From positions 186,001-250,000 of the forward strand of contig OY751485.1 of the NCBI GenBank assembly GCA_963565915.1: 64,000 nucleotides of DNA, read 5' to 3'. Positions 5,501 through 63,264 of this stretch are shown here, one piece after another. The translations under genes were made by a program, and so were the position numbers. Within the stretch, counting starts at the first letter, position 1. Every line of letters starts with the position of its first letter. The DNA comes from Entoloma clypeatum. Lineage: Eukaryota > Basidiomycota > Agaricomycetes > Agaricales > Entolomataceae. The notes under the pieces are model-generated. The model searched no databases, was not told the origin of the DNA, and worked only from the letters and a program-made list of their open reading frames with translations.

Positions 5501-7401
5501 ATCTCGCCTACAGATAATAGACAAACGTCTAAATCTGGTATGAACCAAACGGATGATAGACGAGTAACTTTATTTTGTTTTTGCCTGTTTTTCCTGATGG
5601 TGTGACTAATCAACACTGTTTCTTGTCCAAGTATTTGAATCGTGTGATCTTTTTGTGCAATTTGCACTAACTGACGATCTTTTAATGGGGTATACTCAAT
5701 GAAATCATTGATATCATAAGTAAAGTGCAATGAAGCACCTGAATCAAGAATCCAATTGGATTGATTCTGTTTCTTACATTCAGCACAATTTGCATAATGA
5801 GAATTTATTTGCGCTATAAGCGCATGTACAGCAGGTTGTAAAAATACATCGGACCGCTGTCCGTTCACTCGTCTCCAAAGAGGCTTCTGTGAAGTATTTG
5901 TTAACTGCATTGTACGTGCTGTTGAATGCGAAACATACCCCATGTCGTCGTTGTTCCCATCACCACGGGAAACTTCATACTCCATGTAATTGTTGATGTA
6001 TCCTTCATCGTAATAGCCCCTTATGGTGGGGGCTATGTCTTCAGTCTCCATTTCATTGGCCCAGCTGATCCTACTTGGTGTTTCTTCGTAAACCAGAATC
6101 CGATGATTCCGGGGGTCCATTGTCGGAGGCGCTGAAAGCGGCCTTGATGTTGAAGCTTCATTACGCTGAAGTGCAGGGACTTCGAGAAGACGAGTTAGGT
6201 TCTGTGCTGTCGGAGGGACACTGATGCTTGCAGCAAGTGTGCGTGCTCCGTCCAGGTCCGTAAAGGGGCCTGGGCCAGGAATGTTACCAATCGCAAGCGA
6301 TTGGTTGTTCCTTATCCTCCAATCGGTGGATGATGATGGGTGCAGAGTGAAGATCGACTCATTTCCATAAATGACCGTTCTGGGAAAGGTCTGGGCCGGA
6401 AGCTGCCCAACAGGGGCGCTTTCCATGGCAGAAGAGGCCAAATGGACCTTTTCTTTACCTTTCCAGGGTCCTTTACCCTTGGTCTTCCCCGCAGAAGTTC
6501 CACATCCCTTGCCTTTCCAAGGCTTGGGGTGCTGATGCGAATGCTGCTGGTTAGCAGCCGGTCCTTCTGAAGATCCCTGAGAGGGTCCAGTGCAAGGCTG
6601 GTACTTCGGGGGGTTAGGACGAGCGCGTTTTACCACAGAAATCTTGTTCGCATGGGCACTCCCTTGAGACTGCGGAGCATGCGGGTTTTTACGGAAGTAT
6701 TCCGAGCGTACTTGCTCGATTACCTTTCCAATCTCGAGTACGGCACTCTGGTCACCACCAGGCGCTACGTAGTGTACCACATCAAACAGGATGCTGTGTA
6801 CCAAACCATCATATCCTTGAGGCAGCCCATTCAGGATCATTATGATCCGAACGAACTTGGGGATGTCTATGTGGTTATGTTCGAGTCGTTGAAAGAGAGT
6901 CTGCATCTTATCAATGCCTGATAAAGGATCGGCAGGAGATAGAGAGGTGCGGAGGAGTTGCTGAAAATCAGCAAAGATGGTGGATGGGCCGACCGTGGAC
7001 AGTTTTGTGGCGATCAAGTCCCACATCTCCTTGGAGGTGTTAGCTCCCTTGATGTGATGGACGAGAGAGTCCGAAATGGACATCTGAATTAGGCCTTGGG
7101 CCTGATCGTCCTGTTCATGCCAAGTGTTTAACTTATCTTGGTAATCTGTCTCTTTTGGGTCAACCGGGATTTTTTTATCACCGGTGACGATCCTCCACAC
7201 TTTAGCTGCCTTGAGGTAGGCGCTCATCTTCTCCTGATATATGGAGAAGTTGGTGGTAGTGAGTTTCGGAACAGAGGAAGCGAGGTCGAGCTTGGAAGTT
7301 GAAGACATGATGATGCTGTGAAACATAAATAGAATCAGCATATGTTTATCGAAAAAGCGCATCAGAAAAATAAATAGACAAGCTGCCTTGTCGGTCATCA
7401 T
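2535..7401 (-). pseudogene. Gag-Pol of copia element B, broken in RT and RNase H
   Basis: The long frame (7401 to 3526) codes a copia-type Gag, then protease (WILDSGASLHFT). The integrase follows, with its HHCC zinc site (WHKRFGHP, then CKGC) and DDE residues (HSDLKQ, FDGGGEF, QNGRAERFNR). It ends at a TGA (3528-3526) just before the RT motif KARLVAKGFS, where a CGA-to-TGA change is the simplest reading. A stretch with a small deletion and a TAG follows. A second frame (3274 on) then gives RT with YVDD and RNase H up to SSTEAEMV, where element E truncates it. No CCHC zinc knuckle is present in Gag; a Gly/Lys-rich basic segment replaces it. The upstream ATG (7401) overlaps the ORF0 stop as ATGA. 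The conventional Gag start is the later ATG at 7308, preceded by an intron-like TTTATGTTTCACAG. Confidence 0.88.
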
Positions 7402-14137: not shown

Positions 14138-14507
14138 TGTTATGGACTAACGACTACGGACGTATACGCTTACTTTTTCACTTTTACTCATCGGTCCCCG
14201 CTTACACATATCGTATTATACTTTATTCCCTTTAGTATACTTCGCTCCCGTGCTGACTCGCTTTCTGCAGCTGTCTGACTCATTCCGCAGTCAGCTTACT
14301 CATTAGTGCATAGCCTTCCGCAGTTGCCTTACTCATGCGCACTGCCTTCCACAGTTACTGACTCATTCGCTACTGCTCATAGTCAGTACTATATAAACCT
14401 CATGTACCATAACTACATTCCTTAGATTTAGCAATCACATTGCTCTTCGCCTTTCCATCTTCCTGCATACTCTGCCCGAACCTTGGAACGGTTTGTTACG
14501 CATAACA
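14138..14507 (+). repeat. 3' LTR of gypsy copy 2 (370 bp)
   Basis: It runs TGTTATGG to GCATAACA and is followed by the TAACA duplication. It has the same length as the 5' LTR with 11 transition differences. Confidence 0.95.
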
Positions 14508-14551
14508 TAACAGCGCAAAAGCTGTGATACTGAGAGCATGCGACGCTATGG

Positions 14552-14566
14552 CCGGGGCCCATAACC
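14552..14566 (-). promoter_or_regulatory. Primer-binding site of copia element B
   Basis: On the minus strand, GGTTATGGGCCCCGG follows the LTR end CATCATTA. It is complementary to the initiator tRNA-Met anticodon arm, as in copia. The same bases are codons of ORF0 (RLWAP). Confidence 0.85.
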
Positions 14567-14912
14567 TAATGATGTAGCCGACCCAAGCTGCCCAAAGGGC
14601 GCTGAGGGTGTATCGGTATGAAGGCATGTTGGAAGCTCTACTAACCTGGTAAAGAGTAACTATAGAAGAACTAGAAGCTATACTAGCGGTTAGTTAACTC
14701 AAAGAACTGGGTGTTCAAGAAGTTAGGATTCATCGTACTAAATACATGGGTATTTATACTAATCCTTAGTGTGCACGGACCATGTACAAACATTGTATAA
14801 ACAAGTCATGTTCCGTGGTTGTACCATAAACTCACATATATGGTAATAGTGACTTATAGTCACTTTCTGTGACAAGCACATGGTGCGTCCATATCTGGCG
14901 ATATGTTCAACA
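14567..14912 (-). repeat. 5' LTR of copia element B (346 bp)
   Basis: On the minus strand it runs from TGTTGAACAT to CATCATTA, with a TATAAATAC box around 14752. The ORF0 start ATG (14627) and a bulged mini-hairpin (14602-14587, GCGCCCTTTGGGCAGC) lie in its last 61 bases. A 3' partner LTR is not visible. Confidence 0.8.
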
Positions 14913-49115: not shown

Positions 49116-49933
49116 ATGTCTTACTATCCCAACGTCACCGACTGGAACGAGGCTCAGCTGTTCGACGCTTGGTGCATCAAGCCGCCTGTAGACTATTGTC
49201 CAGACGACTTTGGAGCATGTCCGAATGGTGATGTCACTGGTTACGGACAGCAAGTATCAGGTGAGGTCCTCCAACGCTGCGACGACAGGTGCTAACGAGC
49301 AACTCTTCACGCTCCAACAGTCTACACCACTGAAGTCCTTTTTAGTGGGTTCTTTTGAGTAAACCCCATGAGTCACAGCCTGCTAATGTCGTCATCTAGG
49401 CTTTCTCGTCGCCTTTTGGCCAGCAAAAATCCGCCCAACGATATACACGCATCTAACGCTCATCTTCGCACTGCAAATCAGTGCCCTAATAGGCCTTCTC
49501 CAGGGCTCGCTCACCCAAAATGACGCCGTTTTCATCCTCGTCATGGCCACGTCCCCCACGAGCGTCTATCTCTGGTTCACGACACTCCTATCTGTGTGGG
49601 ACCGCAAGCTGTTCCCGGTGCTCAACCGCGATAGGGACCCAGATTCGGGACGTGCGACGAAGGCATACGAGGCCCGGCTCTTGAGGGTCCTGTCGCTGCT
49701 CAGTTTGGTTTTCCAGCTGGTGCTCGTGTTCGTGATGTACATCCCATCAAAGCATATCAACTTCAGCCAGCCAACGTGTTATAAAGGGTATGGCAGAGAG
49801 GCAATTTTCCAGATCCTCTGGCCGCTCTCGATCCTCATACAACTCGTTCTTGCGTGGCTGGTTATAATGGTTTATTTCTCTTTGTTCAAGATGGTCCGCC
49901 GCGTACCGCGGGCTCCTTCCTCCCCGTAAGATT

Positions 49934-50376
49934 TGTTGAGAGTACATTCTAGACGGATGTCTCGACAATCAATCACATGTCTATAAACATGTGTATTCCC
50001 ATATGGAGCTACATATGGAAGTGTTCTAGACTTAGAACAATCTAGACTCGCTCTAGATCCCTGACTCATTAGATATGTGTCAGACGTGCATAACATATGT
50101 CATGTTATGTCACATCATGTGCTTGTCACACTATGTGACTATAAGTCACATATTACCATATACATGAGTTTATGGTTCTGCGACAGAACTCAGTTTGTAC
50201 TTGTTTGTACATGGTCTGTGTGCATCCTTGTAGGTATAAATACTCGATGTATCTGTATCTGCAATAATAGGACTCTTACCAAGTACCTTCATCACTCAAG
50301 CTCTTCTCGCTCTTCTTGCCTCCAATGTGAGTATCTTACCCAGGCTTCCCTGCATATGTAGGTGTGCTGTTCAATA
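49934..50376 (+). repeat. 5' LTR of element D (443 bp)
   Basis: It has a TATAAATAC promoter box near 50235 and ends TTCAATA immediately before the primer site. Confidence 0.93.
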
Positions 50377-50391
50377 GGTTATGGGCCCCGG
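50377..50391 (+). promoter_or_regulatory. Primer-binding site of element D
   Basis: GGTTATGGGCCCCGG is complementary to the anticodon arm of initiator tRNA-Met. It is the same 15 bases as in elements B and C. Confidence 0.88.
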
Positions 50392-50488
50392 TTTGCCCGG
50401 TACAGTCTGCGCACTCTGACGGAGTTGCTGCGACTGTCTAGCCTGTTAGATACTAACCTGGCCTAGCCAGTGAGCGAGAGTCTTAAAA

Positions 50489-50988
50489 GCGCCCTTTGGG
50501 CTGCTACCGCCTCTTTAGCTAGTAGCATAGACTAGTCTAAGTTAGTTATCTGGTTTGATACTCGGAGGTTCCAGACTAGTGAGCGCCCTTTGGGCTGCAC
50601 CTAGTTCTGATGTCCAAGACTAGCAGAGCGCCCCTAGGGCTGCATCTAGTTCTTGATCTAGACTAGGGCCTTTTATGGCCTATGTCTATATTTGGACATT
50701 TTGTATAAAGCCTGTGGCTTGAGCGCCTTGATAGGCGGCCGCCACACCCTTGTGAAAAACCCTCTCTTGTATCTGCGCCTTCTTTTGGCTGCGATCTAGA
50801 TTTGGGGTTTTCTCATGCTGTGTCATGTCCTGTCTGGCATTTGGTTTTAACCAAATTGAGTATATCTCGATATGCTGACATTCGGACATTACGATTCTCA
50901 GGAACTTTCTGTTCCTTGAACCTTTTTCGTCGATCAATCTTGATCTATTGCACCCTGTACCTGATGGAAGCGCCCTTTTTTGGGTTGC
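50489..50988 (+). repeat. Bulged mini-hairpin cluster I in D (6 copies)
   Basis: Copies start at 50489, 50583, 50628, 50723, 50775 and 50970. Typical form: GCGCC(C), a loop of 3-7 bases, (G)GGC, one bulged base (T; G at 50723), GC. The copy at 50970 has GGGTTGC, keeping a G-U pair. Two copies (50583 and 50628) sit in a longer direct repeat beginning GACTAG and ending CTAGTTCT. All lie on the sense strand, between the primer site and gag. Confidence 0.8.
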
Positions 50989-51648
50989 CTCAGGGACTTC
51001 CCGTTTTTATGGTTGCATGATCTCAGATTTGATGCTGACTTAAAATCGTTCCTAGATGAAAGGATCTTGCATCTGCTTCCATTATGGTTTCATTCAAGCA
51101 AACCATTGGTCACACCATGACATCCGCGTTATTCAGCGTGATGATAGTTTCCACAGACGACACCTCTGTACTCTGGATTGCATGGTCACACCACGCATCC
51201 GGAAGGTGAAAGTCACACAGCTGCGATATGGACGGCATGCACGCCATGTCTGTACTCGCAAATGTGGAAAGAAAAAAGCAGTATGCATCCCCATCTATAT
51301 TCTCTTCACTTGTTGAACTATGACTCTAGGATCCCTGGGCGCCACGCCCAAGTAACATCCGAAGAGCTCGAACGAGGGACTTACCGTCCCCCTTCAATCA
51401 TAGTGACGATGAAGAAAGGAGAATCACACCCGAGGTTACACCCGGGGTAATAAAGATGGAGCAATCGCCTGATCTATAGGCGACTGTCTTTATGTAAATA
51501 CCACAGCATTGTGACCCTTAGTCACATAAATAAAGGCTATTACATAAACTCTCTCTGACATGTGTCACAAACGGTTCAGACAATACCTCTTATCGGTTCA
51601 AATTGGTCTTGAATGTTTGCTGACCACTGTTTCTTTTTAGAAACAAAC

Positions 51649-52512
51649 ATGTCTTCAATCACTTCTTTGATTGCTGTTCCCGTTCTTGACGGCACAAACT
51701 ACCCTGAGTGGGCGAACACCATGTGTTCGTTCCTTAGATCTCAGGATTTGTGGCAAATTGTTGATGGTGCTGAAAAGCGACCCTTGATGTCTGCTAACCT
51801 TACAAGGAAAGCCCATACAACTAAAGTCAAGGCATGGAACATTAGGGATCAAATGGCTTTAGCCAATATTCGACTTCGTGTCGACCCGTCGATCAAACTC
51901 ACCAAAAATATGTCTTCTGAGACTTGGTTTGAGTTAAAGAATAGGTTCGGACGAGCTGTTTATGAAACAGTTCTGTCTGACATTCGTGCTGCATTATCCT
52001 TCAAATTTTCTATGAAGTGACAACCTGCAACCGAGATTGATTATCTTGATAAAATCTTTGATCATCTCGGCGCACATCATTCTATTTCTCCATCGACTCG
52101 GGCCCTAATGCTTCTATCTGCCCTCCCGTCTCCTGATTGGGATGACTTTGCCATAGAAACCCTTCTTTACAATGATGATCTCACCTATGATAAGGTTCGA
52201 GAGTTGATTGTTGAAACATACAATCATCATCATGTTGATCCTGTTCCCGATTTGTCACTTGAGGATTACCTTTACGGCATAGGTGTCTCCTATGATCCTC
52301 GACCGACATCGTGCGATGTTTTTCATCAGCCGTTTTGGAACTTATGGAAGAAGAAGTCTTTCTTATCTGCACCGACAGACCCTGGTGCTCTGCGCTACTC
52401 TAGCTGCGTCGCCGGTCTGGTGCATGATGCCGTCATAACAGAACGATGCAAGGATCCACCCGTCGACAATTACGACGTAGCGTTTCCACGCCTGGACCTT
52501 ATAACAGCATAA
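51649..52512 (+). pseudogene. Gag of element D (copia/UBN2-like), one in-frame TGA
   Basis: An ATG at 51649 follows an intron-acceptor-like TTTCTTTTTAG. The protein begins as a copia Gag (VPVLDGTNYPEWANTMCSFL; MALANIRLRVDPSIKLT; WFELKNRFGRAVYETVLSDI). A TGA at 52018-52020 interrupts it. The same frame goes on (YLDKIFDHLGAHHSISPSTR; LLSALPSPDWDDFAIETL) to 52512. There is no zinc knuckle and no protease after it. One mini-hairpin (52392) is inside the coding region. If Gag was supplied in trans by another element, this frame could have decayed while D kept moving. Confidence 0.75.
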
Positions 52513-53640
52513 TCATTGTGAGAACAATTGTATTTTCTTTCTTTGCAATCAATACATTGATTTGCAATGTGTTCATGTTTTGAACAAAAGAAAGAGAGAT
52601 TTAAAAATGCAAATGCATTTTATGTTCAAATAACTTATATCCAATCTGGAATAATTCCAATAAGTTGGATGTGCCGTTGAGCCACCTACTATAAAGGAAA
52701 CAGCTTAATAAGCTTGTCAAGAAGACTGCGCGAGTCATTAATTTGTCTTTCTGCTGTGTCTGTCTTTCCTTTTCAGGAATTTATATTCCACCTTATATTG
52801 GATAAGACAAAAAATGCTTTAGAAGCATTTAAAAAAAGTAATATTATATTCGTGCGCTATGGCATTTGCATAACACTTGTTCTGCGCCTTGACAGGCTGC
52901 GATAGTGTTCAAAAAATTGTCATTCTGGCTGCCAATATATAATACTTTATTATGCAAAGAAGAGTTTTTCAACCCTTCAACCTAAATCGATTCAAATTGG
53001 TCTAGCCAACCAATCTTGTTCCTCCACTCTTTCACCAAAAAGTAGTGATGATTTGGGGCAATGCAAAGCTTCTTATCTGAACTCTCCATTTCTTGCATGG
53101 GAATGATCTCTGATGCATCTTGCGCCTTTTAGGCTAGCATTGCATTTTGACTTATAAGGCATCTGCGCTTTAATCAAGCAGCGATGGCCTTGTCACAGAA
53201 TCATATAGGGGTGACCGTGATGGTACACACCCTATGGCAAAAATGGATATAGTCAAAAAATCAGATTGTATCACAGCTTACAAATATTGCTGAAATAAAT
53301 CGCCTGAGAGTAATTACCTCAGCATAACTTGGAGAGTAATTCCTCCGCAGTTTGCGATTAATTTTTCTGCATGAATTTCTGGTTTCCCAACCAAGTTCTG
53401 CATCTATTTCAGTATATGCTCTTTGAAAGCCAAAGATACATGGGAAATGATTGCCATACTTGACTGTGAAAAGGGGGAGAATATAGAGAAGCATTTTAAT
53501 GGCAGCATTCTGCGCTATTTTGCTTTGCGATACCATTGCTAGAAAACTGATCTTTGATCTTTTGATCTCACCATCAGATGCATTGCTTCGTATACAACAC
53601 TCTATAGGTTGTACCATTAAAGGAGCGCCGTGACCGCTGC
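52392..53640 (+). repeat. Bulged mini-hairpin cluster II in D (5 copies)
   Basis: Copies start at 52392 (GCGCT, loop, AGCTGC), 52884, 53122 (bulge TA), 53165 (GCGCTT, loop, AAGCAGC, bulge A) and 53625 (weaker). The 52392 and 53165 copies show paired stem changes (C-G to T-A, and an added T-A pair) that keep the helix. Sequence between 52513 and 53782 otherwise shows no coding content. Confidence 0.75.
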
Positions 53641-53782
53641 ATACTTATCAAATGGTCAACTTGAACAAAAGAAAAAGCTTATCCCAGCTTATACCCCTAT
53701 GATTTCTCACCTAGAAACGATGAATTCTGGATAAAAGAGAATATCATATGAATCGATCCGTTAGTCTTATCAGACTATTGTT

Positions 53783-54091
53783 TGTTGAAACTTTTCCCAT
53801 CACGTAGATTAGATTAGATTAGATTACATCATGTGACCTTTACATATCTTCATTACATACTTGTTTGGTTGGTACAAACAGTAGTACGGTATATAAGACC
53901 AGGAAACTGTCAATATCAACAAGTTGTCTCTTGACTCTTAACCAGCTCCATCGCTCTTACCAGCCTCAACCGCTCTCACCAGCCTCACCCCTCCCAAACC
54001 ACGTAAGTGGCTAGAACGGTTATGTAGAGTACTTCCACTGTAGCAGGTTGCTCAGTACATCTGTGGCTAACGCCCAGGTGGAACTTCAACA
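53783..54091 (+). repeat. 5' LTR of element C (309 bp)
   Basis: It runs TGTTGAAAC to CTTCAACA. Four AGATT repeats lie near its start. TATATAA is at 53890-53896. Confidence 0.96.
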
Positions 54092-54106
54092 GGTTATGGG
54101 CCCCGG
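54092..54106 (+). promoter_or_regulatory. Primer-binding site of element C
   Basis: GGTTATGGGCCCCGG is directly after the LTR, complementary to the initiator tRNA-Met anticodon arm. The leader from here to 54455 contains no ORF0 like those of B and E. Confidence 0.9.
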
Positions 54107-54455
54107 ATAGCAGAGGGACTTGGGAAACGCTGGCAACAGCGAGTACCTGCCCACTCTACCCTGGTTGGCGAAGAACCGATCGAAAGATCTAGGTTCTGAG
54201 TCTTACTTCTTCACATATGAACCTGGGAACGTCATTACGACAAGTACCTGTCATGAAACGTCCCTAAGGGGATTGACCTAGTACACTCCATGTGGAAACG
54301 TTGATCGCACCTTGTACGTTTCTGACATATAAAGGGCTTTCCCGTGACTGCTATTCCTAAAGGGAATATGTCATAAGGAATCATTTAATTGTTTTCTTAA
54401 ATCATATTCATAAACACATCACTGATTGGAAACCCTCTTTTAGATTCATCTAAAA

Positions 54456-57400
54456 ATGTCTACCTCTCGTTCTGCCCTCGACACAATCACTGCCTTTGAC
54501 GGCATCGACTACAGGAGCTGGGCCGAAAAAATGAAGTCTTACCTCCTCCATCAAGGAGTCTGGCGCCTTGTTTCTGGCGACATCCCCCGCCCTGTCATCG
54601 CCGACTTCACCACCACAGTCTCCACCCCTGGGGCCACTGCTGCTGCTCCCCCTGTGCTGGCTACCACGGTCGACCAGCCCGGCTTCCGCAAGGAAGAAAA
54701 AGCCTGGATCAGGGACGATGACGTAGCTCTTGGGGCGATACGCCTGAAGGTCTCCGAGGCGATCAGACGCCACATCAAGGACGCCACTTCCTCGAAAGAC
54801 GCCTGGAAGTCATTAAAGGATGCCTACTCCAAGGTATCCCCGGCTGTCATCTTCGGCGACTTCAAGGCCGCCGCCACCTACAAGCTCTCTGGACGCGACC
54901 CCGTCCCCGAAATCGAACGCCTGGGGTCTCTTTTCGCTCGGCTCGCCGATTCGAACTTTGACGTCCCCGATCTGATGCAGGCAATGATCCTGGCAAATGC
55001 AATTCCCGACGCCTGGTCGTCACTGTCCACCGCCCTCTTCCAGGTCTATGACGCCGACGATTTCACCTACAAGGCCGTCGCCGAGAGCATCATCTCTGAA
55101 TATCGGCGCAAATATGCAATTGGGTCTACTCGGGCGTCCAACGAGCAGGCCCGGAAAATCTCCGGGACAAAGCGTAAGGGGCAGGACCCCAAATGGGAAA
55201 GGCAGCAAAAGCCGAGTACCTCGCAGAACGATGCTGACGAGCAGCCCAACTCGGCCGACCCAAGTACCGCTTCTGAGAAGAAGAAGGGAAAGGGACGTTG
55301 GCGCAATCAGAAGAAAAGCGCTAACAATGCGGACAACACGTCCGATCATGTGGAAGAAACAGTTGAGTTCGTTGCTCCTGCTATTCACTTCCCCCCTCTT
55401 CCAGCACCATCCTTCACAACCGTCACTGGTCGCGGGAAAACGATAAGTACCGTGCAGCCCGATTCCGCAAAGATGCAGTCGCTCCTGCAACGAATGAACC
55501 CCCCTCCGTCACAGTACACCGGGCTTCCTTCTGGAAAACCATCCGTGTGGAAAAAGAACGACCATGTCCGCAAACTCGCGCGCGGCATTGGTGCTCGCCC
55601 CTCAGGATCGAATCTTCGTATCCTAGACACCATCATTCCTGACATTGACGAAAGGCCGGCTAAACAGCGTCGCGTAGCCCCGTCGATAGAAGAATCGCTG
55701 GAGATGATGGACATAGACCATCAAAACGAGCGAATGGGGCCGGAACAATTCGAGGATGAGCTGATCGAACTTGACGGTTCGTCACATCCTTCTCTCAAAC
55801 TTGACCAAATGGGAAACGCTAATAATCATGCACAGACGTTTGAATACACATTAGCTAGTACCGATGCAGATAGTATAGATCTCTTTAGTGATGATCTGTA
55901 CAAAAAATGTATCAAACATTCCGCGTCCTGCACACACTGCACAGAGAGAGAATGCGCTCAGTGGATCTTAGATTCCGGCGCATCATTACACTTTACCCAT
56001 GAGTTCAAAGACTTCGCGTATTACAGGCCTCTCAAGGCTAAGCGATTTGTCCAAACAGCTGCAAAGGGAAAGAAACTGGAAATTCTCGGAGTTGGGGCCG
56101 TTCCAGTACGGCATACCCTAAATGGGGAAACTAAAACCCATCTCCTACGACCGGTATTTTATATTCCGGATATGGACACACGTCTACTGTCCCTAGGCGT
56201 CTTCCTTAACCATGGTTACAAAGTTGATGGAATGCGTGGAGAAATTAATATCTCTAAAGGGCTGAACAAAATACAGTTTTCGCCCCATTTTATCGGACAA
56301 ACCATTTATTGGTTAGACACTGAAATACGCTATGACCAAATCCACGCGATCTCTAGCGAAATCACTGTTGAAACCTGGCATAAACGCCTTGGCCACCCAA
56401 ATGACCAGGCGCTCAATAAGATTCCCACTAGTACCAAAGGAGTACCCAAAACGTTAGTACGTGAGAAATCACAGGAAAGCTGCACGGGGTGTCTAAAAGG
56501 GAAAATGCCAAATCAATCTTATCCTAACTCGATGACAAGGGCTGTCAAACCCTTTGATTTGATCCATTCGGATTTAAAGCAGATATCCACGGCATCGTAC
56601 CACAAGTACAAATATTTCCTTACCTTTTTGGACGATTTTTCATCCCACGTCTGGGTCGTCTTGCTTAGGAAGAAGTCAGGCGCCATCACGGCGCTGAAAC
56701 AATTCCTTGCGATGATCCAGAATCAATTTGCCGCTACCCCTAAAAAGTGGCGGGTTGATGGAGGTGGAGAATTTGACGAATACAAGGATGTACTTGCCGA
56801 TCATGGAATTCTGATCGATGTCACGCTCCCATATCAGCACCAGCAGAATGGTAGAGCAGAAAGGATCAATCGAACACTATGGGAAAAATCTCAGGCATTG
56901 CGCTTCGATGCGTGCTTACCGCCCATGTGGTGGGAATTTTGTTTGGAACACGCAGCATTTCTCTACAACAGAACCCCCATGCAGCGTCTTGAATGGAAAA
57001 CCCCTTACTTCAGGGTGACCAATGAGATCCCCGACATGTCTAGTGTCAGAGTATTTGGATGTCAGGCATATGTATATATCCCAAAGGAGAAACGTAGGAA
57101 CTCCCTGGAATCAAGATCCCGATTGATGATTTATCTCGGATCGAAACCAGGGGTCAAAGGATACCGCTTCATGGATCCTGAGACCAACACGATTTTCATG
57201 GGCGGGAAAGCTATCTTTGATGAAAGCAAGTACCCTAGATGCCACATTGACCCGTTGCCAGAAGACCACCCAGAAATGGAAAACCCAGAGCCGGCTGATG
57301 AGTTTGAGGATCTCATTCCCGGCAGCAATGATGACGATAGTCACAACGAAACACCTCATATCCCAGTTCCCATTGAACAGGATCAACCTGAATCAGACAA

Positions 57401-59183
57401 CGAACTGCCTGCCAGTGAGCCTGATGACGAACCGCGAGTACCCACTCCGGAACCCGAGCAAGTACCAGATCGACCGATCAGGGAACGACGAGTTCGGAAG
57501 ATGCCAGGAAGCATCTATGGGGAAGACACTCCAGCGTCTGATCTTGAAAAATTAGATCGAAGACGGAGATTGGGCGGTCAAACGGCATGGATGAATGACC
57601 TCCTGATGGAGGCAATATCAGTCCAAGTTGGCATCGTTGAAATGTCCCATAAAGACATATACCCTCTTCCAAATAGAGAAGACTGGTATGCGGCTGAACG
57701 TAAAGAGCTAGACATGCTCAAACGCCGCGGGGTGATCACGGAGCTAGTACCCCTGCCTGCAGGGAGGAAAGCTCTAAGGAACAAATGGGTTTACAACGAA
57801 AAGTCCGACGGGCGTCTGAAAGCGCGCCTCGTCGCAAAAGGCTTCTCACAGGTAGAAGGGATCGACTTTGATCAGATCTTCTCACCAGTCGTAAGATATG
57901 AAACCGTCCGGCTAATACTGGCATTGACAGCCCTTGAAGGGTGGTTCATGACTCTATTGGACGTCTCATCAGCCTTCCTCTATGGAACGCTCCGTGAAGT
58001 CATCTATATGCGACAGCCTGAGGGCTACATAGTAAAAGGGAAAGAACACCTCGTGTACCAACTATTCAAAGCTCTATATGGACTTAAGCAGGCCGCATTA
58101 GCCTGGTGGAGGGAACTTGATTCCTCCATGAAAAAGCTCGGCTTTGTCCGGCTTCACTCCGATGCGGGAGTATTCATTCACAAAAGTACCAATGGGGAAA
58201 TTGTAATTGCCGTCATCTATGTCGACGACTCTGCTTTTCTCGGCACAAACCAGGAATACACGCTAGAGAAGAAGAAGGCCTTCATGACCACATGGGAATG
58301 TAGGGACCTAGGGCACCTTGTGCCTGATGGGGAACCGAAAGAATTTCTCTCTATCCAAATAAGGCAACGTGGGGAACGTATCTTCATTGATCAAGTACCT
58401 TACCTTGAGAAAATACTCGAACGAATGGGGATGAGCGAATCTAATGCCACCCATACCCCACTCCCTACGGGCTACAAACCCATGGCGTCCGAAGATGAAC
58501 CCAATGCGGAACTCCGATCTAAGTACCAATCCGTCATCGGATCACTCCTATATCTGATGATTGGAACGAGGCCTGACATCTGCTTTGCTGTAATCAAAAT
58601 GTCCCAATTTTCCGCAAATCCCACCAAACGCCATTTAGAGGTGGCTAGGGATATTTGCAGATATTTGAAGGCAACGAAAAATTACGCGATCATGTACGAT
58701 GGGGACTCAGGGAAAGGGATCTATGCATTCACAGACTCCGACTGGGCGTCAGATGAAAACACGAGGAGGTCTACCACCGGCTTCTTCATATCACTGGCGT
58801 CTGGAGCGATAACATGGGTATCATCGGCGCAAAAGACCATCGCCCTCTCTTCTACAGAAGCAGAGTATATGGCGCTATCAGATTGCAGTCGCGCAGCAAC
58901 ATGGCTAAGAAGCATGCTTGCCGAACTTGGAATGCAGATCGGATCAGTACCGATCTACGGAGATAACAACGGCTCCGTCTTTATCGCATCCAACCCTGTG
59001 ACTGAGAAGCGATCCAAGCACATTGACGTGCGATTCCACTTCGTCAGAGAAAAAGTCTCTGAAGGAATTATTACGGTCAAATTCATCGAAGGAGTGAATA
59101 ACCCTGCAGACCTTTTGACTAAGAATCTGGGGAAAATCCTCTTTTCCAAGTTTATCCCGTACTTCGGACTGATAAAGAACTAG
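54456..59183 (+). CDS. Gag-Pol polyprotein of copia element C (1575 aa)
   Basis: One frame codes all the functions. Gag spans about residues 1-300 (FDGIDYRSWAEKMKSYLLHQ), with a basic Lys-rich stretch instead of a CCHC knuckle. Protease is at D506-S-G (WILDSGASLHFT). Integrase has WHKRLGHP, then CTGC zinc residues, and D706, D768 and E802 as the DDE triad. RT has YVDD at residues 1255-1258. RNase H has TDSDWASDENTRRS and SSTEAEYMALSD. The C-terminus ends KFIEGVNNPADLLTKNLGKI, complete for the family. The ATG at 54456 follows a CCTCTTTTAG acceptor-like motif, so the leader may be spliced. All catalytic residues are present. Confidence 0.96.
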   Translation: MSTSRSALDTITAFDGIDYRSWAEKMKSYLLHQGVWRLVSGDIPRPVIADFTTTVSTPGATAAAPPVLATTVDQPGFRKEEKAWIRDDDVALGAIRLKVSEAIRRHIKDATSSKDAWKSLKDAYSKVSPAVIFGDFKAAATYKLSGRDPVPEIERLGSLFARLADSNFDVPDLMQAMILANAIPDAWSSLSTALFQVYDADDFTYKAVAESIISEYRRKYAIGSTRASNEQARKISGTKRKGQDPKWERQQKPSTSQNDADEQPNSADPSTASEKKKGKGRWRNQKKSANNADNTSDHVEETVEFVAPAIHFPPLPAPSFTTVTGRGKTISTVQPDSAKMQSLLQRMNPPPSQYTGLPSGKPSVWKKNDHVRKLARGIGARPSGSNLRILDTIIPDIDERPAKQRRVAPSIEESLEMMDIDHQNERMGPEQFEDELIELDGSSHPSLKLDQMGNANNHAQTFEYTLASTDADSIDLFSDDLYKKCIKHSASCTHCTERECAQWILDSGASLHFTHEFKDFAYYRPLKAKRFVQTAAKGKKLEILGVGAVPVRHTLNGETKTHLLRPVFYIPDMDTRLLSLGVFLNHGYKVDGMRGEINISKGLNKIQFSPHFIGQTIYWLDTEIRYDQIHAISSEITVETWHKRLGHPNDQALNKIPTSTKGVPKTLVREKSQESCTGCLKGKMPNQSYPNSMTRAVKPFDLIHSDLKQISTASYHKYKYFLTFLDDFSSHVWVVLLRKKSGAITALKQFLAMIQNQFAATPKKWRVDGGGEFDEYKDVLADHGILIDVTLPYQHQQNGRAERINRTLWEKSQALRFDACLPPMWWEFCLEHAAFLYNRTPMQRLEWKTPYFRVTNEIPDMSSVRVFGCQAYVYIPKEKRRNSLESRSRLMIYLGSKPGVKGYRFMDPETNTIFMGGKAIFDESKYPRCHIDPLPEDHPEMENPEPADEFEDLIPGSNDDDSHNETPHIPVPIEQDQPESDNELPASEPDDEPRVPTPEPEQVPDRPIRERRVRKMPGSIYGEDTPASDLEKLDRRRRLGGQTAWMNDLLMEAISVQVGIVEMSHKDIYPLPNREDWYAAERKELDMLKRRGVITELVPLPAGRKALRNKWVYNEKSDGRLKARLVAKGFSQVEGIDFDQIFSPVVRYETVRLILALTALEGWFMTLLDVSSAFLYGTLREVIYMRQPEGYIVKGKEHLVYQLFKALYGLKQAALAWWRELDSSMKKLGFVRLHSDAGVFIHKSTNGEIVIAVIYVDDSAFLGTNQEYTLEKKKAFMTTWECRDLGHLVPDGEPKEFLSIQIRQRGERIFIDQVPYLEKILERMGMSESNATHTPLPTGYKPMASEDEPNAELRSKYQSVIGSLLYLMIGTRPDICFAVIKMSQFSANPTKRHLEVARDICRYLKATKNYAIMYDGDSGKGIYAFTDSDWASDENTRRSTTGFFISLASGAITWVSSAQKTIALSSTEAEYMALSDCSRAATWLRSMLAELGMQIGSVPIYGDNNGSVFIASNPVTEKRSKHIDVRFHFVREKVSEGIITVKFIEGVNNPADLLTKNLGKILFSKFIPYFGLIKN

Positions 59184-59257
59184 GCGAAACAAAAGTACCT
59201 ATATATATGTGGGAAAAAGTAAGATGTATTTAGAAGTATGTACTAAATATGGGGGGG

Positions 59258-59566
59258 TGTTGAAACTTTTCCCATCACGTAGATTAGATTAGATTAGATT
59301 ACATCACGTGACCTTTACATATCTTCATTACATACTTGTTTGGTTGGTACAAACAGTAGTACGGTATATAAGACCAGGAAACTGTCAATATCAACAAGTT
59401 GTCTCTTGACTCTTAACCAGCTCCATCGCTCTTACCAGCCTCAACCGCTCTCACCAGCCTCACCCCTCCCAAACCATGTAAGTGGCTAGAACGGTTATGT
59501 AGAGTACTTCCACTGTAGCAGGTTGCTCAGTACATCTGTGGCTAACGCCCAGGTGGAACTTCAACA
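59258..59566 (+). repeat. 3' LTR of element C (309 bp)
   Basis: Same length as the 5' LTR; differs at two C/T positions. It is followed by TTGTT. Confidence 0.96.
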
Positions 59567-59754
59567 TTGTTGGGTTCTATTCCCAAGTATATCTTCCATG
59601 ATTACTTGATGAAGCATCTTAATTGATGGCTTACTAATAATGCATTAATTTGCATTATATGGTTCTTGGAATACCAAGATTACTATTGTTTGCATGAAAC
59701 GCATCAGAGTGCTTGTTACACTCTTAAGATTTGGATCAACCCATCATCTGATCT

Positions 59755-61508
59755 GCGCCTTGTTTTGGCTGCGACAATGATCTGGTTCTTGCATTGAGTA
59801 GAGCGCCTGTGTTGGCTGCCTCCTTTGACAAACAAGACCAAATAACACCCTCACGCATTATTGTTGTATCATGCAACAAACATAGTAAATCTGTGTTGAT
59901 GCCTTAGAGTGGATTCTCTATTGACCTCTGAACATAAATCGGTTGTTCACCAACATAAAGTATTACCAACCACAAAGAACTACATTGCAAAGTCATTTAT
60001 TTGACTATAATCTGCAATATTCCTTGCACATCATCACATATAACAGTTGGCTTGATTGCCTATAAAATCTGTAAAATGTACTCCACGGAATTGGTTTTCA
60101 GGGGGAGTTAATTCATTCTCTATTAACCCTAAAAAACAATCCACATGATGTTTGCTTGTCTAGCCTTTGCATAACAATGTGCGCCCCTTTGGGCTTGCCA
60201 CAGTTACTAGGCTTGATTATATCTGCGCTCAAATAATGGCTGCAATATCAATCATTGCGATTATATTTTGCAATAGCTTGGATAGTATGTCAGACGATAT
60301 GGGAAACGATGACGGAACTACCAGCTGTCTCAGATATTATATTCTGAGGACTCAACGTCCACTATGACGATAAACTAGACCCTACTCCGAAACAGAGCAT
60401 AAACTATCACAGTGGACTCTGAACCTAACTAGTTCATCCACATCCCTGAAGTCTGGAGTATTACACTCGACTCAGATGACATTATCTATAAGCACACCTT
60501 AAAAGTGTTGCCATGATAATATTACATACTCAGGATAAAGGCACCCTTGTCTAAAAATCCACGGTTGTTAGCGCCTTATTTGGCAGCTTCCCAGAGTATA
60601 AATAAGCTATTTATAGCTTACATCATGCCAAGCATGATATCATCAGTTGGTTAAATGACCCTTTGAGCCAGATCAAGTCTAACGAGCTCTTAATTGAGTT
60701 ATGTCTTCTGACTTATCCCCGGCCTTAGTGCCACATGCTCTTTCCATACTAGTTCTTGCGCTACTACTGGCTGCAACTACTATGTGATCCATAAAACTGA
60801 GTACCACTATGTCTTGAGCGCCTTCTTGGGCCGCCTGCATTGGTAATCTCATTTTTGTGTGAATCATGGTCAAAACCATTGATACTCGTCTGAAATGACA
60901 ATAAACTATCACACGTGGTTTGCTGATGCAATCAGGCCAAACACCTGACTCAGCATGGTCCGTGCGAGATAGGCAAAGCCTTAAATACGCTCCTCAAAGT
61001 TGAGTTTTAGAGCAGGCTTCCAATGGCATTCTTCGCCTACTTCTCCACCGCCTTTTACACTCGCTTCGCACATGCCGACCATCTGGCGCATGTTGCCTCG
61101 ACCACCAACACCACCACCACCACTACTGCAGCTGGCGATGCCGCTGCTTCTTCATCGCCCTCTGGCAATAACACTGCCATGACCACCGACGATAAGACGT
61201 CAGAAAAGAAGTGAAAGTAGTTAGTGGTACAAAGTAATTAAATAATCAATTACTTCAGTGGCTGCTCTAAGCGCTACACTGGCTGCTTTTAGCGCCATTA
61301 TGGCTGCATGTTTAATGCGCTATTTCATGTCTCTCAAAGGTATTTTTATCCTTTGATGATCTATTGATCTCAGATTGACTTCTGATGAGACCTGTCTATT
61401 CTTGTTTTGGAATTAGACTTGTGGGTCTCTGATAAGACCTTAAATGACAGCATATGCTAAACGACACAGCAGATCCCCTTTAGCGCCCTTACGGCTGCTG
61501 CCATTTAA
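59755..61508 (+). repeat. Bulged mini-hairpin cluster III in D (10 copies)
   Basis: Copies start at 59755, 59803, 60181 (bulge TT), 60225 (GCT with GGC, a U-G pair), 60571 (bulge A), 60758, 60818 (bulge C), 61271, 61292 and 61493. The loop is 4-8 bases and differs in every copy. All are in the same sense orientation. The flanks do not align, so the hairpin itself is the conserved unit. Confidence 0.8.
61023..61214 (+). CDS. Small GC-rich ORF in element D (63 aa)
   Basis: This is an ATG-to-stop frame in an otherwise AT-rich region, preceded by an acceptor-like TTTTAGAGCAG. The N-terminus is aromatic and hydrophobic (MAFFAYFSTAFYTRFAHADH), then a Thr-rich run and a charged tail. The base composition is host-gene-like. 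It could be a captured host exon or a small accessory ORF. I recognise no family. Confidence 0.35.
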   Translation: MAFFAYFSTAFYTRFAHADHLAHVASTTNTTTTTTAAGDAAASSSPSGNNTAMTTDDKTSEKK

Positions 61509-61585
61509 TTTGGCTCTTCACTAGGACTTGAATGTCTTCTTGTGAACAAGTATTGAAACCTGACGGAATCACACTTGAGGGGGAG

Positions 61586-62028
61586 TGTTGAGAATACATT
61601 CTAGATGGATGTCTCGACAATCAATCACATGTCTATAAACATGTGTATTCCCATACAAAGTTACATATGGAAGTGTTCTAGACTTAGAACAATCTAGACT
61701 CGCTCTAGATCCCTGACTCATTAGATATGTGTCAGACGTGCATAACATATGTCATGTTATGTCACATCATGTGCTTGTCACACTATGTGACTATAAGTCA
61801 CATATTACCATATACGTGAGTTTATGGTTCTGCGACAGAACTCAGTTTGTACTTGTTTGTACATGGTCTGTGCGCATCCTTGTAGGTATAAATACTCGAT
61901 GTATCTGTATCTGCAATAATAGGACTCTTACCAAGTACCTTCATCACTCAAGCTCTTCACGCTCTTCTTACCTCCAATGTGAGTATCTTACCCAGGCTTC
62001 CCTGCGTATGTAGGTGTGCTGTTCAATA
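61586..62028 (+). repeat. 3' LTR of element D (443 bp)
   Basis: Same length and ends as the 5' LTR. It is preceded by GAGGGGGAG and followed by the AGATT duplication, then the rest of X3 intron 3. Confidence 0.93.
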
Positions 62029-63264
62029 AGATTCCGTTTCTTCCTCGTTGTGTTCAAATTTGCTGAACATCAGTAGCCCAGACACGAGCTCCGATGTTGT
62101 GACCTGGATCGAAGGAGTGACAGTAAATGCGCTCGGCTTGGCGCACGACGGCAAGTCAATCTTGGTCCCTTGCCTCCTCGCCATACTTCAGTATCGGACT
62201 CTGGTTCTGTGGATCCCCTTTTCTGGTGTCCCGTTAGCTTGTCACCTCTTTACCTGCTGCTGTGGAATCATATGGTCACTGTGTATTCGTCGGCGCTTTG
62301 ACAACGAATTTCGGTAGCTTTCGTTGTCGTCCAGTTTCATGCATCAACCGATTAACGCCACCGCATGTCCAGGTTGTTCCTCATACTTGCCTTGTTTTCG
62401 GTTCCAGATCTCGCCGTCGTATTCTTGGCCGGATTGAGTCCAGCTTTTGCGTCCGGATTTACCACCATGGCCATCTGTATACCGACTCTGTGGAAGCATC
62501 CGGGCGGGCCCAGATCGAAACTTTACTGCCTGACGTAAGTTACGACGTGTACCACGAGCTCCTACTAAGTATAACAAGCAATGTCTGACGTTCTGATTGC
62601 TAGGTTCATTCTGGGACTGCTAGGTCTGATAGTAATGGAAGCGACTTTCCCCCTCCATACTTACATTTTCTTTGATACGATAATTTACTCCTGGCACCTT
62701 ACGCCCCTCCAGCACTTGAGTAAACTTCTGTCTGGCCTGTTTGTCCTCGCTTACAATTCCTGGGTATTCGTCGCTTGGTTGACAATATCGTGATGGTCGG
62801 ATGTAGAGAAAAGTCAGTGGGTGATTTGGAAAGAATGGAAGGGGATATGGTAAGTGCAGCCCTCGTCGTCTCCGATGGTGGAACCGTCACGGTAGAGCAG
62901 GCATGTCACAGTAAAACGAGCACACCTTTTCAAGTTTGGATTGTTGGTTGTCTATCCGAATGCCCTGTGGATTTCTGCGACGATTGCGACAAATCCTACG
63001 AATCCCACGGGATACACTATTGGACAGGTATGGTACTTTTTGGCATCGAGCTTTGTTCGTACTGGTGGCTGATTTGTGATTCAGACCTTCGCAGTTCTCA
63101 TGTCTGCAGGAAGCATCATATGCTTTATCATGGACGTCTCTGAATCGAAACGCAAAACTGCCATTTTCTGGGCAGTTTTGAAATCGACAAGGATACCGCC
63201 AGAGGAAGACGAAGCCGTTTTGCCATACACCCAGCAGTCTTCTGAATCTTTGCGACCGCTTTGA

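Follow-up and report, generated by a model that had tools for sequence, protein, structure and literature searches.

The window analysed here, a 64,000-nt stretch of an Entoloma clypeatum contig, contains the LTR element D (49934-62028), the copia element C nested within it, and one copy of a gag-pol copia family, E (Table 1). D has paired LTRs with 97.5% identity over 443 nt, a target duplication (AGATT flanks the element on either side), a polypurine tract and a primer binding site that we take to be complementary to the anticodon arm of the initiator Met tRNA. The window copy of gag has an in-frame TGA at 52018-52020, and outside C no frame of at least 140 aa is found in the window D. The family is a recent one with gag and without pol (40 gag matches scored): the gag frame is intact in copy L010, where it matches PF14223, and 30 of the first 38 gag matches listed (88-100% identity) lack a stop. 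D is a non-autonomous copia family, gag-only as the preliminary description had stated, and it probably depends on a complete element with which it has a hairpin in common. No homologue of D Gag was found in the large protein set searched. Rfam covariance models run against 49900-62100 gave no match above threshold and a single sub-threshold match at 58156, within C.

Table 1. Coordinates of features of elements E, D and C in the window.
Feature	Position	Strand	Remarks
E possible hairpin in gag	6402..6419	-	coding; may be coincidence
E possible hairpin in gag	7205..7223	-	coding; may be coincidence
E hairpin, bulged A, near end of LTR (14507-14912)	14587..14602	-	within open frame
5' LTR of D (TGTTGA...TTCAATA)	49934..50376	+	preceded by TSD AGATT
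Primer binding site GGTTATGGGCCCCGG	50377..50391	+	identical in D, D2, E and C
Hairpin missing from earlier list, GC-ACT-loop-AGT-U-GC	50411..50428	+	
Hairpin	50489..50504	+	kept in D2 (except L042) with inner C-G to U-A swap
Hairpin	50583..50598	+	kept in D2 copies L041, L050, L052 with inner C-G to G-C swap
Hairpin	50628..50643	+	apparent tandem duplicate (~45 nt) of 50583; canonical form absent in D2
Hairpin, bulged G	50723..50739	+	bulged U in older copy L045
Hairpin	50775..50792	+	
Hairpin, 3' arm GGGUUGC	50970..50988	+	most D2 copies similar
ORFa, basic Cys/His-rich open frame, 86 aa	51056..51316	+	conserved in D2
gag of D	51649..52512	+	PF14223 match in intact copy L010
Hairpin within gag	52392..52407	+	
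Hairpin	52884..52900	+	
Hairpin, bulge of two bases	53122..53138	+	
Hairpin, bulged A, GCUU/AAGC	53165..53182	+	
Weak candidate, C-C mismatch	53625..53640	+	predicted not to fold (0.03-0.04)
Nested element C (copia, gag-pol)	53783..59565	+	TSD TTGTT read by eye; hairpins absent
Hairpin	59755..59772	+	some D2 copies keep hairpin with changed loop length
Hairpin	59803..59819	+	diverged version in D2
Hairpin, bulge of two bases	60181..60198	+	
Hairpin	60225..60243	+	
Hairpin, bulged A	60571..60587	+	D2 site of equal length without canonical hairpin
Hairpin	60758..60774	+	
Hairpin, bulged C	60818..60834	+	bulge is U in copy L043
Hairpin	61271..61286	+	conserved in D2 copies L049, L050, L052
Hairpin	61292..61307	+	D2: presence varies by copy
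Hairpin (earlier list: 61493)	61483..61498	+	
Polypurine tract GAGGGGGAG	61577..61585	+	same in E copy L039; 1 base off in E copy L040; unlike C
3' LTR of D	61586..62028	+	

The hairpin has a free loop and a five-pair stem, GC followed by GCY pairing with RGC, whose two helices are separated on the 3' side by a single unpaired base, usually U. Twenty of the 21 starts listed in the preliminary description do begin with GCGC; the other, 61493, marks the 3' arm of the hairpin that begins at 61483. The single bulged base described there holds for most, but not for 53122 and 60181, with two bases, or for 53625, with a C-C mismatch, which is probably not a family member. Fold prediction gave the third stem pair a value of at least 0.8 in 17 of the 21 hairpins and weak outer pairs (<0.2) at 50583, 50723, 50970, 53122 and 61483. 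Within the local fold the 61292 hairpin did not form (0.00), and in isolation that at 50723 preferred a register without a bulge.

On the plus strand of the window the strict form, GCGCY-loop(2-9)-RGCTGC, has 13 occurrences, all within D, and on the minus strand it has none, which reproduces the thirteen U-bulged hairpins reported earlier. When any bulge base was permitted, D gave 17 sense matches and 2 antisense matches, and the latter (61274 and 61295) are spans across the adjoining sense hairpins 61271 and 61292. Markov simulations (1000 for each of orders 1, 2 and 3) on D pieces totalling 5,901 nt gave mean strict counts of 0.016, 0.017 and 0.154 and a maximum of 3, in keeping with the earlier estimate of far less than one by chance. 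Together with the antisense counts in D, these simulated controls rule out a chance origin. A relaxed U-bulge definition found no hairpin on either strand of nested C, so that the reported absence from C stands, and none was found in three further loci of the C family. Each of 30 distinct D1 5' halves (the window and L010-L038) carries 4-11 sense hairpins and 0 antisense. The fewest are in L010 and L011, which have other sequence at the expected leader position and are included in the D1 polymorphism counts though their leaders do not align. The hairpins crowd into the 5' leader of D, and the repeats continue to its 3' end.

Older relatives of D, termed D2, were retrieved by DNA homology and not by their hairpins, and U-bulged hairpins were found in 4 of 5 copies. 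In the first 5.3 kb of four D2 copies there are 5, 9, 8 and 7 sense hairpins of this form and 1, 1, 2 and 1 antisense, with 1.3-1.5 in simulations. The strict orientation described earlier applies to D, where the antisense strand is nearly empty, but not to looser counts in D2: across whole 8.8-kb D2 loci, matches with any bulge base numbered 3, 8, 7 and 6 sense and 10, 10, 12 and 11 antisense, without sense bias. These antisense matches are partly spans across adjoining hairpins and partly a second, 5'-bulged class of D2 hairpin read backwards. L053, a D2-like copy at 84%, has 0 hairpins sense and 2 antisense.

Paired changes are found in the inner stem. The third pair of the hairpin at 50411 is A-U in the window, G-U in some D copies and G-C in D2 copies L050-L052. 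Pair six played no part in the search; it is Watson-Crick in 28 of 50 rows, with all four forms represented, against 10.9 after permutation, in an alignment that contains orthologues. For the window rows alone the covariation score was reached by 0 of 500 shuffles, while 2 of 5 measures (both-side pair changes and further pair types) were not above shuffles. These permutation and shuffle tests are uncorrected for phylogeny. Four of the six stem pairs are invariant in the window rows and therefore do not covary; the earlier claim of a stem kept by paired changes is supported for the inner stem. Flanking bases considered as a stem extension showed no covariation, with 10 of 55 paired against 13.9 expected. 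Between D1 and D2, conservation over all 15 hairpins compared was 0.725 in the stem, 0.657 in the flank and 0.499 in the loop, a modest excess for the stem.

A covariance model, R1, was built on 16 hairpins; 53122, 53625 and 60181 are absent from its alignment, and 50970 and 60225 were removed after misalignment. Searched against 174.5 kb, it gave 65 matches with E values up to 1, all of them sense and within D, D2 or E; 16 of these matches had served to train the model, and many more are orthologues of those 16. Genome-wide, GCGCCN{2,9}GGCTGC has 875 matches, compared with 109 for a backward control. Of 100 matches listed, 85 are on contig C1: 44 in D1, 5 in D2, 15 in E and 21 in neither, assignments made partly by 5.5-7.3 kb spacing alone. 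These 85 include no cluster lying beyond D, D2 and E.

The polypurine tract and a U3 block are common to D and E, and the LTRs of the two elements have 76-77% identity over ~160 nt; the primer binding site and LTR start are also common to C. Copies L039 and L040 of E, with LTRs ~76% alike, have GCGCCCTTTGGGCTGC at the LTR end, a 16-mer that is identical to D hairpin sequence and adjoins the primer site; its occurrence in E had gone unmentioned in the preliminary description. Firm hairpins in E number one per LTR only. Under the relaxed definition L039 has 5 matches (simulated 1.2, maximum 5) and L040 has 6 (simulated 1.1, maximum 4), and the window copy has 6 sense and 3 antisense (simulated 2.7). 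The LTR hairpin lies within an open frame encoding the same peptide, LSALWAA, in all three E copies examined, and the gag sites likewise fall in coding sequence, which means that constraint on codons can account for E's hairpin copies. D Gag has 27% identity to C Gag and equally to E Gag, and Gag kinship therefore does not name the partner; three of the genomic gag matches at 30-35%, on inspection, are C-family.

The strict counts, sense orientation, forms of pair six, R1 matches and occurrence in D2 and E lead us to conclude that these are selected RNA hairpins and not chance; they are apparently not self-spreading DNA. The preliminary description is supported in taking the hairpins to be RNA-level structures, sense in D, with an inner stem kept through paired changes. 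We tentatively favour the view that the hairpins are repeated binding sites through which a particle protein, perhaps that of E, captures D RNA. They would serve as cis-acting sites in D genomic RNA, where a sequence- and structure-specific RNA-binding protein would recognise the GC/U-bulge/GCC core; acting jointly, some 20 copies would get the RNA captured into particles. The likeliest protein reader would be E Gag, because D and E share the polypurine tract, the U3 block and one identical hairpin, and D Gag is without a visible RNA-binding tail. E's own hairpin would work as in D, and E would supply reverse transcriptase and integrase. The hairpin may serve as an address label for packaging D RNA. 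Packaging, export and dimerisation are all conceivable roles, and by inspection loop-loop dimerisation looks unlikely, since the loops differ. A more elaborate scheme, which we consider rather unlikely as a whole, is a two-component system with a multivalent hairpin code, one hairpin beside the primer site of the gag-pol element and about twenty in the gag-only element that depends on it; E Gag or ORFa would be the reader, and the second class of D2 would be a lineage-specific change of code.

TR-GAG elements are non-autonomous LTR elements of plants with LTRs and gag but no pol. D resembles them in its LTRs, its gag and its absent pol, and differs in its repeated hairpins, which are not mentioned in the portions of the TR-GAG literature drawn on here. 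To our knowledge, little is known of how dependants exploit another element's particles. Packaging signals of RNA viruses are presented, in the part of the source used, as many sequence-structure motifs with a common recognition motif along one RNA (PMC6281560). D likewise carries multiple sequence-structure motifs spread along one RNA, but it is an LTR retrotransposon, its stem and bulge are constant and its loop free, and the coat-protein contact is putative here. According to excerpts of the Ty1 papers, Ty1 packaging signals lie within the 5' 380-580 nt and are not dispersed (PMC4974528), a pseudoknot (PMC8396678) and kissing loops (PMC5454406) are described, and the choice of RNA for packaging is poorly understood (PMC8396678). 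The crowding of D hairpins in the leader and the E hairpin beside the primer site are reminiscent of this 5' packaging and dimerisation region as so described, whereas D repeats one hairpin through to its 3' end. If the two-component scheme is correct, it would exemplify dispersed hairpin-repeat packaging in an LTR retrotransposon. The preliminary description knew of no retrotransposon family with such hairpins, and the titles and opening abstract lines listed from the open-licence literature describe neither such hairpins nor an example of such packaging. Being compact, repeated and built round a defined core, the hairpin would offer a recognition element open to direct testing, and its copy numbers, one in E, several in D2 and about twenty in D, would form a natural series for the evolution of an RNA address.

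The reader could instead be encoded by D itself, if the hairpins bind ORFa as a separate nucleocapsid-like or Rev-like factor by which unspliced D RNA is packaged, exported or translated. ORFa sits in the hairpin-rich leader, D Gag has no zinc-knuckle match in a Pfam search, 27 distinct ORFa peptides of at least 80 aa come from D1 and D2 loci, and many Cys, His and Lys residues of ORFa are invariant. Its dN/dS between the window and L041, L050, L051 and L049 is 0.18, 0.15, 0.22 and 0.44, calculated without stop-containing codons and copies of other length. We nevertheless regard this as unlikely: ORFa in these four copies has stops or has lost the frame end, and DNA 3' of ORFa is also highly conserved, so ORFa conservation may not be for protein. 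Additionally, ORFa has no Pfam match and no homologue in the large protein set searched, structure prediction gave no usable model (pLDDT 37), and no ORFa was recognised in E.

Recruitment of a host RNA-binding protein, acting in stability, localisation, export or translation, or shielding of the RNA from silencing, seems to us equally doubtful. A sequence-specific core with free loops and a U bulge, recurring across the non-coding part of D RNA and present in D, D2 and E of one host, would suit such a protein. Against it, the hairpin is not general to elements here, being absent from the C family, and 64 of the 85 matches listed on contig C1 are assigned to D1, D2 or E, in part by spacing alone.

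The preliminary description had also raised self-spreading mini-hairpin DNA that inserts copies into D, in the manner of mitochondrial GC clusters. Those clusters and repetitive hairpin elements are, in the source portions consulted, GC-rich palindromes of short length that recur many times (PMC4478555, PMC2800124). D hairpins are also short, GC-rich and numerous, their nearly identical cores have unrelated flanks, and hairpin-bearing segments in D1 are missing as blocks from D2. This origin is nevertheless very unlikely. Whereas GC clusters, as so described, are mobile mitochondrial DNA, D hairpins lie in an LTR element and are bulged, covarying and of one orientation, and compensatory changes are unexpected for inert inserts. 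Genome-wide scatter, which we take to be typical of GC clusters as opposed to restriction to one element group and strand, was not seen in the window, the 30 D1 5' halves, the 174.5-kb model search or the matches listed on contig C1. Hairpins do vary in presence between copies, but no clean insertion with target duplication was found in the 30 D1 5' halves or the D1-D2 comparison. The copies compared showed no clean empty site, and the flanks of the 21 hairpins are unrelated on average. At 61292, the best example of a hairpin present in some copies and absent from others, the copies differ by 25 nt that lie between short direct repeats. Hairpins instead form or decay in place just after gag and at 60571, where the length is unchanged.

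If reverse transcriptase switched templates or slipped at hairpins, the hairpins could be neutral copies that have no function. This would account for the two tandem pairs (50583/50628 and 61271/61292) but is highly improbable, given the covariation, some excess stem conservation, and flanks that over all 21 hairpins are barely more alike than random positions (means of 11.4 and 11.0, respectively, out of 30).

A four-base-loop form of the hairpin was found at 49 places; of the 8 examined, two, L003 and L006, are GCCCAACGGC-type repeats. By eye, L046-L048, which come from the genome-wide matches to GCGCCN{2,9}GGCTGC, appear to be GC-rich coding repeats.

No pol frame was found in D, the gag-only copia LTR element, outside C, the copia element with gag-pol that is nested in it. 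The gag region of D recurs elsewhere in the genome (40 matches scored of 86 candidates, DNA identity 91-100%). Gag is free of stops in 30 of the 38 first-listed recent copies, here called D1 (88-100% protein identity), and that of copy L010 is an unbroken frame of 287 aa matching PF14223. Older relatives of the element, D2, are roughly 75-85% identical to D over common blocks and around 65-73% identical in Gag.

The bulged hairpins of the preliminary description were present, with 20 of 21 starts exact and the last hairpin really beginning at 61483. One further member was found (table), the hairpin at 53625 is doubtful, and in several others the bulge is not a single U. Matches to the strict form, GCGCY-loop-RGCTGC, number 13 on the sense strand and 0 on the antisense strand of the window, and all of them lie within D. 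The earlier estimate that chance would give far fewer than one was borne out: with sequences simulated at three Markov orders, 1000 per order, the strict count averaged 0.016-0.154 (maximum 3). When the definition is loosened (GC, a three-pair helix with no more than one G-U, a loop of 3-8, a bulged U, GC), D holds 17 sense hairpins and 1 antisense against a simulated 1.5 (maximum 7), and C, from which hairpins had been said to be absent, has none on either strand. The 5' halves of 30 distinct D1 copies each carry 4-11 sense hairpins and no antisense ones; the lowest, L010 and L011 with 4 each, have their leader replaced by other sequence.

A covariance model built from 16 window hairpins was searched against both strands of 174.5 kb, including loci chosen by pattern or gag matches (L039-L045) or by DNA homology alone (L049-L053). 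All 65 matches with E-values up to 1 were sense, as had been claimed for those in D, and lay in D, D2 or E, a gag-pol copia family. In three C-family loci the same model gave a single antisense match at chance level (E-value 1.3), and the remaining seven matches from this run all fell in the pattern-picked loci L001-L008. Among five D2 copies picked solely by DNA homology, four contain 5-9 sense and 1-2 antisense U-bulged hairpins in their first 5.3 kb (simulated 1.3-1.5). In the fifth, L053, there are no sense hairpins and 2 antisense ones. When any bulge base is allowed over the whole loci, the same four give 3-8 sense and 10-12 antisense matches, so the sense bias of D2 applies to the U-bulged form and not to bulged hairpins at large. 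These antisense matches include a second hairpin class read in reverse and spans across adjacent hairpins, and about half are located beyond 5.4 kb.

Covariation was tested with anchoring on GCGC and GCTGC only. Watson-Crick pairing is seen at pair five in 38 of 55 distinct cores, against 28.8 after permutation (0.0006), and at pair six in 28 of 50, against 10.9, with C-G, G-C, A-U and U-A all used there; the permutation values are too optimistic because these rows include orthologues. When the analysis was confined to the window's 15 distinct rows, their covariation score exceeded that of 500/500 shuffles and the percentage paired was reached by 1/500, while four of six pairs are invariant, and two-sided pair changes and further pair types were ordinary (234 and 84 of 500 shuffles). 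That the inner stem is kept through paired changes, as first proposed, is seen between D1 and D2 at 50489 (C-G to U-A), 50583 (C-G to G-C) and 50411 (A-U or G-U to G-C). Comparing D1 with D2 over 15 hairpins gave an identity of 0.725 for stems, 0.657 for flanks and 0.499 for loops; the figures for the six that align well, selected after the alignment was seen, are 0.903, 0.742 and 0.619. Among D1 copies, stems show 1.5% non-CpG differences, loops 2.2%, flanks 2.3% and the bulge position 5.2%; these rates, and the CpG rates below, are raised by two rows with unalignable leaders. It is very probable that these are selected RNA hairpins. Many stem changes in the GCGC cores of recent D1 copies are CpG transitions (1.1% in stems, 0.2% in flanks), as expected if the elements are methylated.

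Features of D, of its D2 relatives and of family E (window positions unless a locus is named)
Feature	Location	Remarks
D LTRs		443 nt each, 97.5% identical to one another
D target duplication		AGATT
D primer site and polypurine tract		both present
D1 U3 block	50092-50252; L039:989-1155	76-77% identical
Additional hairpin	50411-50428	not listed previously
ORFa	51056-51316	in D leader, conserved across D1 and D2
Region 3' of ORFa	51317-51440	high D1-D2 conservation here too
D gag frame	51649-52512	one stop interrupts window copy
Common upstream stretch	52860-52883; 60157-60180	upstream of two distant hairpins
Hairpin of window E copy	14587-14602	bulged A
278-aa frame of E	L039:1272-2108	upstream of gag-pol
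Second-class hairpins	L041:1874-1890, 2036-2052, 5424-5441
Second-class hairpins	L050:900, 1057, 5758	sense strand
Junction with 492-aa frame	L041:6390 onward	frame on opposite strand

Family E is a possible partner of D. Identical copies of the 16-mer GCGCCCTTTGGGCTGC lie in pairs 5.5-7.3 kb apart among the matches listed, and the two pairs opened, L039 and L040, are LTR ends of E, whose LTRs gave 40 scored matches among 333 candidates (97-100%). In L039 a gag-pol frame of 1602 aa includes reverse transcriptase, with the final part in another frame (Pfam, L039 only). The polypurine tract GAGGGGGAG is common to D and L039, that of C being different, and a U3 block of ~160 nt is common to D and E at 76-77% identity. 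The primer site and LTR start TGTTGA are found in C as well, so the argument for E as partner rests on the hairpin, the U3 block and the polypurine tract. Comparison of Gag does not single out a partner: D Gag is 27% identical to C Gag and E Gag alike. The D2 LTR matches poorly at the U3 block, and judged from sequence, promoter capture or exchange between families is possible.

The E hairpin lies 24 nt upstream of the primer site and is the same in L039 and L040 despite LTRs only about 76% alike. An open frame spans it in 3/3 copies (L039, L040 and the E copy in the window) with the peptide LSALWAA each time, so codon constraint may account for E's hairpin copy; in L040 this frame is short (38 aa), open through the hairpin and stopping about 60 nt beyond. 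The 278-aa frame of L039 has no Pfam match, begins within the LTR and runs through the primer site; its equivalents in L040 and the window E copy are open stretches of 38 and 65 aa.

What stays constant in the hairpin is GC, a bulged base and GCY-RGC, whereas the loop is free, as would be expected if a protein reads a bulged helix. We tentatively suggest packaging, in which the reader would be a particle protein and D would have multiplied its sites so that its own RNA gets packaged. By inspection, a long basic stretch is present in E Gag, which lacks a Pfam zinc knuckle, and D Gag lacks both. A rival candidate reader is D's own ORFa, an 86-aa, basic, Cys/His-rich frame. Pairing the window copy with four D2 copies gave ORFa dN/dS values of 0.15-0.22 for three and 0.44 for the other; no relatives were found in Pfam or a large protein set, and structure prediction gave no usable model. 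Our literature searches yielded no description of such repeated hairpins, in agreement with the preliminary description, which knew of no retrotransposon family with them. The closest concept is that of dispersed packaging signals of RNA viruses (PMC6281560). In Ty1, the closest retrotransposon, the packaging region is described as the 5' 380-580 nt (PMC4974528), and its Gag as binding RNA with low specificity and preferring a pseudoknot (PMC8396678).

As to how the hairpins spread, flanks of the 21 hairpins, two tandem pairs excepted, are alike on average at 11.4/30 positions, against 11.0/30 at random positions. The stretch TTTGCATAACA, shared upstream of two distant hairpins, is a hint of copying with flank. 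The self-spreading hairpin offered earlier is not supported: D1 and D2 differ in place (at 60571, with the same length, and just after gag, where a hairpin occurs in D2 only, with one base of length difference) or by larger blocks containing hairpins, and their comparison revealed no hairpin unit that had been cleanly inserted. Such differences fit hairpins gained and lost under selection better than a mobile hairpin, although some copying with short flanks may have occurred.

The second class in D2, TGC-U-GAGC-loop-GCUC-GCA with a loop of 2 to 3 nt, occurs two or three times per element, with no antisense copy in any of the five loci scanned. Its pattern is found at 53 places genome-wide (backward control 0), many of them coinciding with known D2 copies. 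L041 and L042 are joined at the same point to a 492-aa frame, non-LTR-like by eye, which suggests an old shared insertion or duplication.
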